Shown piece by piece: positions 1,949 to 15,794 of a stretch of DNA of 64,000 bases. How positions within the stretch are numbered: position 1 is the first letter of the stretch; each line of letters starts with the position of its first letter. Location: positions 945,068-1,009,067 of the forward strand of contig NZ_FREX01000001.1 in assembly GCF_900143565.1 (NCBI RefSeq), written 5' to 3'. A model generated the notes under the pieces. The model ran no database searches. It saw only the letters and a program-made list of their open reading frames with translations, and had not been told where the DNA came from. The DNA comes from Pseudovibrio sp. Alg231-02. Lineage in GTDB: Bacteria; Pseudomonadota; Alphaproteobacteria; Rhizobiales; Stappiaceae. Position numbers and translations under genes: made by a program.

Positions 1949-2105
1949 TCTATCCCACTCTCTTCAATCTGCAGCTCAGAGTTTAACGTAACCATTCAGC
2001 ATGAAGGTTACAGCTCTTTACTTTACGATACCAGATACTAGCAGTTCAGAATTACCGAGGGTTGAATACTGCTATTATTTTCGCGCAGATTTTAGGAGAG
2101 GGAGT

Positions 2106-12861: not shown

Positions 12862-13113
12862 GTGACAGAAGAAGCAGCCGGTTCCATTGAAAACCTTTCC
12901 TTTGAGCAAGCATTAGCTGAGCTGGAAACCATTGTTCGCAATCTGGAGCAAGGCAACGTGCCTCTGGAAAAGAGCATTGAGCTTTATGCTCGGGGAGAAG
13001 CCTTGCGTGAAAAGTGCGATGGCTTGCTCAAAGCTGCTGAAGAGAAGGTAGAGAAAATCCAGATGAACACATCTGGAAACGCAGTTGGCACAGAAGCGCT
13101 GGACGAGCAATAA
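12862..13113 (+). CDS. xseB: Exodeoxyribonuclease VII small subunit
   Basis: 83-residue, acidic, all-helical protein with the XseB core [36 protein letters not shown] and [15 protein letters not shown]. It partners XseA in the nuclease that degrades single-stranded DNA; xseA is not in the window. The GTG at 12862 is the likely start (GAGG 8 bases upstream); a TTG one codon earlier is the alternative. It follows the deacetylase gene closely and ends in a good terminator. Confidence 0.93.
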
Positions 13114-13165: not shown

Positions 13166-13198
13166 CTCTCTCCAGTACACGCGTTCATTTTTTCAACA

Positions 13199-13226
13199 GA
13201 CCCCGCCTTGAGCGGGGTTTTTGTTT
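13199..13226 (+). terminator. xseB terminator
   Basis: Stem ACCCCGC/GCGGGGT with a 5-base loop and the tail TTTTGTTT. Confidence 0.9.
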
Positions 13227-13514: not shown

Positions 13515-13546
13515 AAAAAAAAGGGGGCTACGAAAACCGTAGCCCC
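13515..13546 (-). terminator. Strong minus-strand terminator with no minus-strand protein gene upstream
   Basis: 9-bp perfect stem (13524-13532 with 13538-13546), a 5-base loop (GTTTT read on the minus strand), then eight uninterrupted T on the minus strand (A-run 13515-13522 on plus). Both flanking genes are plus-strand, so this is direct evidence for a minus-strand transcript here. Confidence 0.85.
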
Positions 13547-13615
13547 AAGTCGATCACTGTGCACGTGGCCCCATCGACCACACATTCGACATAGGACGTT
13601 TCGTCGCAGATTGCA

Positions 13616-13631
13616 TCACCCCATGGGGTGA
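13616..13631. repeat. 16-bp perfect palindrome
   Basis: TCACCCCATGGGGTGA reads the same on both strands. It lies just upstream of the candidate minus-strand RNA's 20-codon frame and about 125 bp upstream of the dxs promoter. It could be an operator or an RNA hairpin. Confidence 0.5.
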
Positions 13632-13754
13632 CAAAAGCGCAATTAATACTAGCAAATGAAAAAAAATACGTTCTCATCCCCTATTGACACAGGTTTTGAA
13701 GAGGCATCCCTACAAAAGGACCTAGCATAAACGATCAATTATTCATGACAGGCA

Positions 13755-13782: not shown

Positions 13783-13892
13783 CGTGGTCAATTACGGAAG
13801 ACAGTCGTTTCGGCCATAATTTAGAACATATGCCATGGTCGGGTCGTTCTGTGTTAAGCTGCCAAATAGTCAAAAGACTTAAGAAGACCCTG

Positions 13893-15794
13893 ATGTCCCT
13901 GCTAGATCAAATTCAAAACCCATCTGATCTCAAAAAGGTCCCCGAGGACCGCCTTCAACAAGTTGCTGAAGAGCTTCGAGAGGAGATGGTTGATGCTGTT
14001 TCTGTTACAGGAGGGCATTTAGGAGCTGGATTAGGTGTTGTTGAACTCACCGTTGCGCTCCACCATGTCTTCGACACGCCCAAAGATCGGTTGATCTGGG
14101 ATGTAGGACACCAGTGTTACCCGCACAAAATTCTGACTGACCGCAAAGAGCGTATTCGCACACTGCGTCAGGATGGCGGCCTGAGTGGCTTCACCAAGCG
14201 CTCCGAGAGTGATTACGACCCATTTGGTGCCGGACACTCTTCCACTTCTATTTCAGCTGGCCTTGGCATGGCTGTGGCCCGCGACCTTGCTGGCGGCGAT
14301 AACAATGTGATCGCTGTAATTGGTGATGGTGCGATGTCCGCTGGCATGGCTTATGAAGCCATGAACAATGCAGGCGCGCTGAACTCCCGCCTGATCGTTA
14401 TTTTGAACGACAATGACATGTCAATTGCTCCACCTGTTGGTGCCCTTTCCGCGAGTCTTGCGCGTCTTGTTTCCGGCAAGACTTATAAGGGCTTCCGCGA
14501 GGCAGCTAAGCAGGTCGCAAGCGCATTGCCAAAACCGCTGCAGGAAAAAGCAGCGCAGGCAGAAGAGTTTGCCCGCAGCTTCTTTACCGGCGGCACTTTG
14601 TTTGAAGAACTTGGCTTCTACTATGTTGGCCCCGTTGATGGGCACAATCTGGATCACCTTTTGCCTGTCCTGAAAAACGTTCGGGACGCTAAAGAAGGTC
14701 CAATCCTCGTTCATGTGGTAACCCAAAAGGGTAAAGGCTATCTGCCTGCTGAGAACGCCAGCAACAAGTATCACGCTGTTGCCAAGTTTGATGTTGTGAC
14801 AGGTGAACAGTCCAAACCGAAACCGAATGCACCTGCCTACACTCGCGTTTTTGCCAATGCGTTGATTGAAGAAGCAAACAAAGACGAGAAGATCGTTGGC
14901 ATCACAGCCGCGATGCCGGACGGAACTGGTCTGGATGTGTTTGAAAAAGTTCACCCAACCCGCATGTTCGATGTGGGTATTGCTGAACAGCATGCTGTGA
15001 CATTCGCCGCTGGTCTTGCCTCTGAGGGCTTCAAGCCGTTCTGTGCAATTTACTCGACCTTCCTTCAGCGTGGCTACGATCAGCTTGTCCACGATGTTGC
15101 GATCCAGAAACTGCCTGTACGCTTCCCGATTGATCGCGCTGGTCTCGTTGGCGCGGATGGTGCGACTCACGCAGGTTCATTTGATACTGCGTTCCTCTCT
15201 TGCTTGCCGGGCATGGTTGTTATGTCACCGGGTGATGAAGCAGAGCTGGTCCATATGGTTTCCACCGCTGCTGCTTATGATGAAGGTCCAATTGCCTTCC
15301 GTTACCCGCGTGGTGAAGGCATTGGCATTGATCTGCCGGAAGTTGGCATGCCTTTGGAGATCGGCAAAGGCCGCATCGTTAAAGAAGGTTCCCGCGTTGC
15401 TCTGGTTTCACTGGGTGGCCGCTTGCAGGAAGCCTTGAGGGCTGCTGATACGCTTGATGCGGCCGGTCTTTCAACAACAGTTGCCGACGCACGCTTTGCC
15501 AAACCGCTTGATACTGAGATGATCGGGCGCCTTGCCAAAGAGCACGATGTGCTGGTCACCATCGAAGAAGGTTCCATTGGCGGCTTCGGAAGCCAGGTGC
15601 TTCAGTTCCTCTCTGACAACGGCTTGCTTGATGGGTCTCTTAAAGTTCGCAGTATGATCCTGCCGGACGTTTTCCAGGACCATGCGAAGCCGGAGACGAT
15701 GTACAAAGATGCGGGACTAGATGCATCAGGGATTGTGCGCCGTGTCTTTGAAACCCTTGGTAAAGCAGAGGATTTGCCGTTAAGGCTGGTGTAG
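13893..15794 (+). CDS. dxs: 1-deoxy-D-xylulose-5-phosphate synthase
   Basis: First enzyme of the MEP isoprenoid pathway: condenses pyruvate and glyceraldehyde 3-phosphate using thiamine diphosphate. The 633-residue product shows [11 protein letters not shown], the ThDP motif [26 protein letters not shown], the catalytic-Glu block [16 protein letters not shown], and [18 protein letters not shown]. The start at 13893 ([10 protein letters not shown]) fits the family and has AAGAAGA upstream; the frame extends 21 codons further without support. dxs is usually followed by tlyA and a TrmA-type methyltransferase in alphaproteobacteria; here an MFS gene and a copper module intervene. Confidence 0.97.

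Follow-up and report, generated by a model that had tools for sequence, protein, structure and literature searches.

A putative family of sibling small RNAs in Stappiaceae, with one copy encoded between xseB and dxs

Introduction

OmrA and OmrB of Enterobacterales are sibling small RNAs (sRNAs) of 82–88 nt whose sequences do not diverge until about nucleotide 21; they pair with their targets through a 5′ seed and differ from each other in expression (PMC12692685). AbcR1 and AbcR2 are alphaproteobacterial sibling sRNAs that act on mRNAs in trans (PMC5461406). Most species were described to carry one copy of the aR8 family (suhB/MmgR; SisA–D in Caulobacter) at a fixed locus, and the differing promoters of SisA–D were proposed to feed different signals into the same response (PMC12559287). 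The Sinorhizobium RNA rnTrpL functions as a trp attenuator, and its 5′ end carries a leaderless ORF (PMC7298713).

The locus described here lies in the window, by which we mean the whole 64,000-nucleotide stretch of Pseudovibrio sp. Alg231-02 DNA that was analysed, and it is most likely a member of a new sRNA family whose siblings act in trans, probably with the help of Hfq. The predicted family resembles AbcR1/AbcR2 and aR8 in consisting of alphaproteobacterial siblings, and further resembles aR8 in combining unrelated promoters with a common core and a terminator. Like OmrA/B, its members share a common 5′ end, but the 3′ ends of OmrA/B are also common whereas the terminators of the Stappiaceae sRNA differ between loci; to our knowledge, the two are unrelated in sequence. 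With rnTrpL/peTrpL it has in common that a small RNA is closed by an intrinsic terminator, but it has neither a conserved ORF nor a biosynthetic gene on the same strand. Stappiaceae are marine, often host-associated bacteria, and neither a described sRNA for Stappiaceae, Roseibium, Pseudovibrio or Labrenzia nor the core sequence was found in the main texts of the open-licence part of PubMed Central. The predicted RNA would add an unnamed family-wide sRNA to this family.

The terminator between xseB and dxs

In the window, xseB (ending at 13113) and dxs, both on the plus strand, flank an intrinsic terminator on the minus strand (13515–13546). It was identified by terminator scan, fold and covariation and consists of a 9-bp stem with a pentaloop (13546–13524), a single C and eight T at 13522–13515 (U8 in the RNA). 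An earlier reading made from the sequence only (the sequence-only reading) had pointed out this eight-T terminator, had stated that it cannot serve xseB or dxs and had found no minus-strand structural gene after it. All of this was borne out, as the orientation is wrong for both plus-strand genes and the gene reached next, xseB, is itself encoded on the plus strand. A plus-strand terminator-like site is present downstream of xseB at 13198–13220. The dxs protein showed 96% identity to the homologue of Pseudovibrio japonicus, family Stappiaceae. The start of dxs is probably the ATG at 13893 and not that at 13830 (plus strand), since for many relatives the alignment does not begin before residue 24 of the longer frame.

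Conservation and fold of the predicted RNA

The RNA gene was placed at 13515–13581 on the minus strand from the conservation boundary, the fold and the family-wide presence of the core, which gives an inferred transcript of 67 nt with its first base at 13581 and its last U at 13515. A search with a 22-base core allowing up to three mismatches detected the core in 87/87 genomes of the family and in 7/7 genera, with two matches in the set for the reversed control; the presumed assignment of these genomes to Stappiaceae was based on the dxs protein match and on named Roseibium loci carrying the core. From the matches, 65 distinct copies were gathered, 42 beside dxs and 23 elsewhere, after a three-mismatch match from another family (L111) had been dropped. 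The alignment of dxs-linked copies, and the model built from it, comprised 34 of the 42 distinct copies, the alignment of the other copies 23/23 and a third alignment 16/65.

Positions +1 to +28 were invariant (28/28) in the 42 distinct copies linked to dxs, which represent seven genera, and together form an identical 5′ core, GTGGTCGATGGGGCCACGTGCACAGTGA (13554–13581, minus strand); a stretch of 28 nt that is unchanged over such a sample is unusually rigid. Upstream of the core, the mean major-base frequency in the same 42 copies was 0.45–0.49 in four of five blocks and 0.63 in the block from −45 to −30. The transcript start was inferred at 13581 because this background changes to identity there, 7 nt past a −10-like hexamer.

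The core begins with a 5′ hairpin of 6 bp with the loop GAUGG (13565–13581), followed by a mostly unpaired linker, GUGCACAGUGAUCGACUU (13547–13564), around GUGCACA, which is a candidate seed. GUGCAC was present at +18 to +23 in 65/65 distinct copies, and a T run of at least five lay downstream in 65/65 as well. The fold of the 67-nt RNA was better than that of 200/200 of its own shuffles (z −3.3), and the arrangement of hairpin, linker and terminator was common to 10/10 copies folded. The hairpin was invariant in the dxs-linked alignment (34/42 copies), and 12 changed hairpin cells among the 23 other copies all retained a standard pair; as these were one-sided changes without any two-sided compensatory change, the shuffle control was uninformative for the hairpin. 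In the terminator, two-sided changes occurred in 9/10 pairs compared to 4.9 in shuffles (34/42 dxs-linked copies aligned), and 47 cells showed such changes compared to 12.1 in shuffles (33 distinct rows of that alignment). The sequence-only reading would have been contradicted by the A-run or the stem missing in close relatives; a T run of at least five followed the core in 42/42 distinct dxs-linked copies.

Terminator-like sites in the region exceeded those in shuffles only modestly (5 compared to a mean of 2.1, and 2 compared to 0.8, in two region scans), which would be in line with a terminator and a frame having met by chance with no gene present. This explanation is practically excluded by the family-wide invariance of 28 nt and by the copies elsewhere; besides, the core motif was found in 0/100 shuffled windows and is not a chance expectation. 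The existence of the RNA gene itself, with a predicted transcript, is regarded as nearly certain. The proposal of a stand-alone RNA made in the sequence-only reading is strongly supported by the family-wide conservation, the terminator of its own, the promoter-like layout at a fixed distance and the extra copies.

Reading frames

A frame of 20 codons, MQSATKRPMSNVWSMGPRAQ followed by a stop codon, is located at 13616–13554 on the minus strand and ends 7 bases before the terminator stem. The frame directly before the terminator had thus been read correctly from the sequence, except that the gap is 7 and not 8 bases, but the survey of copies indicates that it is fortuitous and not a gene. Its ATG belongs to the GGTGATG element of the promoter and precedes the inferred start by 35 nt. 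Among the 42 dxs-linked copies, 21 were open to the common end MGPRAQ-stop, 12 crossed the core in another frame, seven stopped earlier and two contained no ATG, and the residues upstream of the core were dissimilar between genera. The frame was rejected as a gene on its ATG within the promoter and its common end in just half of the copies.

The last six codons (13574–13554) form a shorter frame, MGPRAQ-stop, that was exact in 51/65 copies. A short peptide message, from either this frame or the 20-codon frame where the latter remains open, might be read from these numbers. However, no synonymous change was found in the six codons in any of the 42 dxs-linked copies, which matches the expectation for RNA constraint, and 14/23 other copies differ: in ten the stop after codon six is missing, one lacks the ATG and three show one-residue changes. 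The AUG at +8 leaves little space for a ribosome-binding site, and the longer frame begins before the inferred start and shifts with the promoter spacing. The six-codon frame was therefore also rejected, and we consider a peptide message of either kind very improbable.

The locus looks like a short regulatory RNA gene rather than a leader peptide, to which the sequence-only reading had likened the frame, since the ORF is unconserved and no regulated same-strand gene follows. Its comparison with a small trans-acting peptide such as that of the rhizobial TrpL system is not sustained either, given the position of the ATG ahead of the inferred start.

Promoter region

A putative −10 element, CTATGT (13589–13594, minus strand), was placed by its position 7 nt before the first base and was not called by the consensus scan. 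A weak putative −35 region, GATGCA (13612–13617), lies 17 nt from it and was placed by position and by the conservation of GGTGATG, which, or a close variant of which, starts at −38 to −40 in 42/42 dxs-linked copies. A palindrome, TCACCC-N4-GGGTGA (13616–13631), is centred at −42.5 and is a candidate activator site; it was perfect in 29/42 copies and imperfect in 13/42, mostly in the left half. We take its centre to be close to the usual position of class II activators. In the genome of the window this was the single perfect site; the reversed control also had one there. In a search of 12 genomes, 13 perfect sites were detected (at least one in 9/12), of which six were located at the sRNA promoter by coordinates, compared to two sites for the reversed control.

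The weak −35 region and the palindrome centred at −42.5 suggest that the dxs-linked copy (copy 1) is probably activator-dependent. The promoter scan called no minus-strand sigma-70-type promoter in this region; together with the weak −35 region, this fits activator dependence, yet speaks against a strong constitutive start.

Relation to known RNA families and distribution

No family of Rfam 15 reached its gathering score over the window. The suhB family (RF00519)/aR8 scored 19.7 bits compared to a cut-off of 41, and its core as given in PMC12559287, UUUCCUCCCU, was absent. It was rejected, as were ncS54 and SorY, which also gave weak matches below the cut-off. These three matches were mainly on the terminator, and those of suhB and SorY also on the GACUU preceding it. 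A separate suhB/aR8 sRNA (L246; G000:C16:155537-155617) was found in the same genome with 56.8 bits, above the Rfam cut-off. The Rfam family of AbcR1/AbcR2, which we take to be ar15, did not appear among the matches, which were listed up to E 10.

A 221-base query matched 37/61 genomes, namely every one of the 37 drawn from the family of the window (its own genome included), and 0/24 from other families. The gap between xseB and dxs could be read in 52/80 alphaproteobacterial loci, 28 being excluded because xseB was not in order or the gap exceeded 2,500 bases. The core was present in 4/52 gaps, all from Stappiaceae, and a simple rule detected a minus-strand terminator in these four core-bearing gaps and one more. 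A model search within the order covered 297 genomes, 285 of them from other families; 107 gave a match with E ≤0.1, including 12 members of the family, and the best eight outside matches were on the G+C-rich terminator and not on the core, with no convincing relative among them. A class-wide pattern search matched 6/289 genomes, one being that of the window and the other five without a T run >3 within 90 downstream bases. The core had no match in the viral contigs, plasmids and phages searched, and an origin from phages or plasmids is unsupported by those collections. As far as sampled, the predicted sRNA family appears to be confined to Stappiaceae.

Proposed mode of action

Within the predicted family, copy 1 is best explained as a stand-alone sRNA acting in trans by seed pairing on Hfq, and we hold this explanation with moderate confidence; the same reservation applies to base pairing as the mechanism. 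The promoter between the sRNA and dxs would fire leftward, probably in dependence on an activator, and an RNA of about 67 nt would end at the U8 terminator. Its 5′ hairpin and GUGCACA linker would then act in trans, most likely by short-seed pairing with mRNAs on Hfq. U8-type terminators are of the kind bound by Hfq, and an hfq gene was found in 3/3 genomes examined. The locus shows what is expected from sequence for an Hfq-dependent sRNA, i.e. a short stand-alone RNA gene with an intrinsic terminator and a U-run.

Searches for conserved long complementary targets gave none. For complements of 12–15 bases, a first search in nine genomes yielded six non-self sites compared to three for the reversed control, a second in nine genomes yielded one site compared to two, and a third allowing G-U pairs in 11 genomes yielded three compared to 12; no site was conserved in any of them. 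Because long complementary targets were not found, either pairing through a short seed or a partner protein has to be assumed. The same RNA gene could accordingly carry in its conserved 5′ hairpin a protein-binding site, acting as a decoy or cofactor RNA instead of through an mRNA seed. Both strands and the loop of the hairpin are frozen in 42/42 dxs-linked copies and nearly so in the 23 others, unlike a stem in which only pairing matters. A seed by itself would not require so much conservation, which counts against pairing. On the other hand, the unpaired linker and U-rich terminator give an ordinary sRNA layout, and sRNAs with many targets may also have a common 5′ end, as described for OmrA/B (PMC12692685). 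We consider a protein site possible but unlikely, and seed pairing is preferred.

Copies away from dxs

At least two matches per genome were found in 48/51 genomes of three genera (42/45, 1/1 and 5/5 in g2, g3 and g4, respectively) and in 0/36 genomes of four other genera; linkage to dxs was judged on the retrieved loci, a subset of the matches in the 87-genome search. The 23 copies not linked to dxs retained the 5′ core, had terminators that varied from locus to locus and did not match that of copy 1, and often had different promoters, with upstream sequences that also differed in several of them. Counterparts of the −10 element such as TAGAGT, TAAAGT and TATACT were seen by eye at a similar position, and the −35-like hexamer ATGACA was present in 15/23, with a TAGAGT-like −10 typically following after 17 nt (spacing by eye). 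AACTT often followed the core in these copies, and [AG]ACTT was found in 47/65 of all copies. In the variants L163, L164 and L165, the core was altered and the hairpin retained.

The dxs-linked copy, encoded on the strand opposite to dxs, is separated from it by 223–409 bp (median 270; 116 loci, with genomes repeated), a constancy that might suggest a cis element of dxs or xseB, either an antisense RNA or a by-product of a divergent promoter. Other copies, however, are unlinked to dxs, and in G062 and G083, both nearly complete genomes, such a copy is the only one, the dxs-linked copy being absent by both pattern and model search. On these grounds cis control of dxs was rejected, and a cis element in general seems most unlikely. 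In G062 and G083 it is as if the copies can replace each other, and for the preferred trans-acting siblings, copies with different promoters would route different signals into one response.

It is also conceivable, although doubtful, that the conserved part is a portable module of 25–28 nt, frozen in the family and re-used across loci with other promoters and terminators, whose main role would be that of a hairpin binding protein or RNA and not that of a classical seed. Independent inputs would in that case converge on one common output. One core with varied promoters and terminators offers a natural experiment on where in an sRNA the function resides and why siblings persist.

In the loci inspected, a common second copy adjoins genes that we presume to be rlpA-like and GGDEF genes, and a photolyase-like gene mostly lies downstream (ORFs assigned by eye). 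The L164 copy (1983–2061, minus strand) lies among ORFs that, by eye, resemble tail genes of phages or gene transfer agents.
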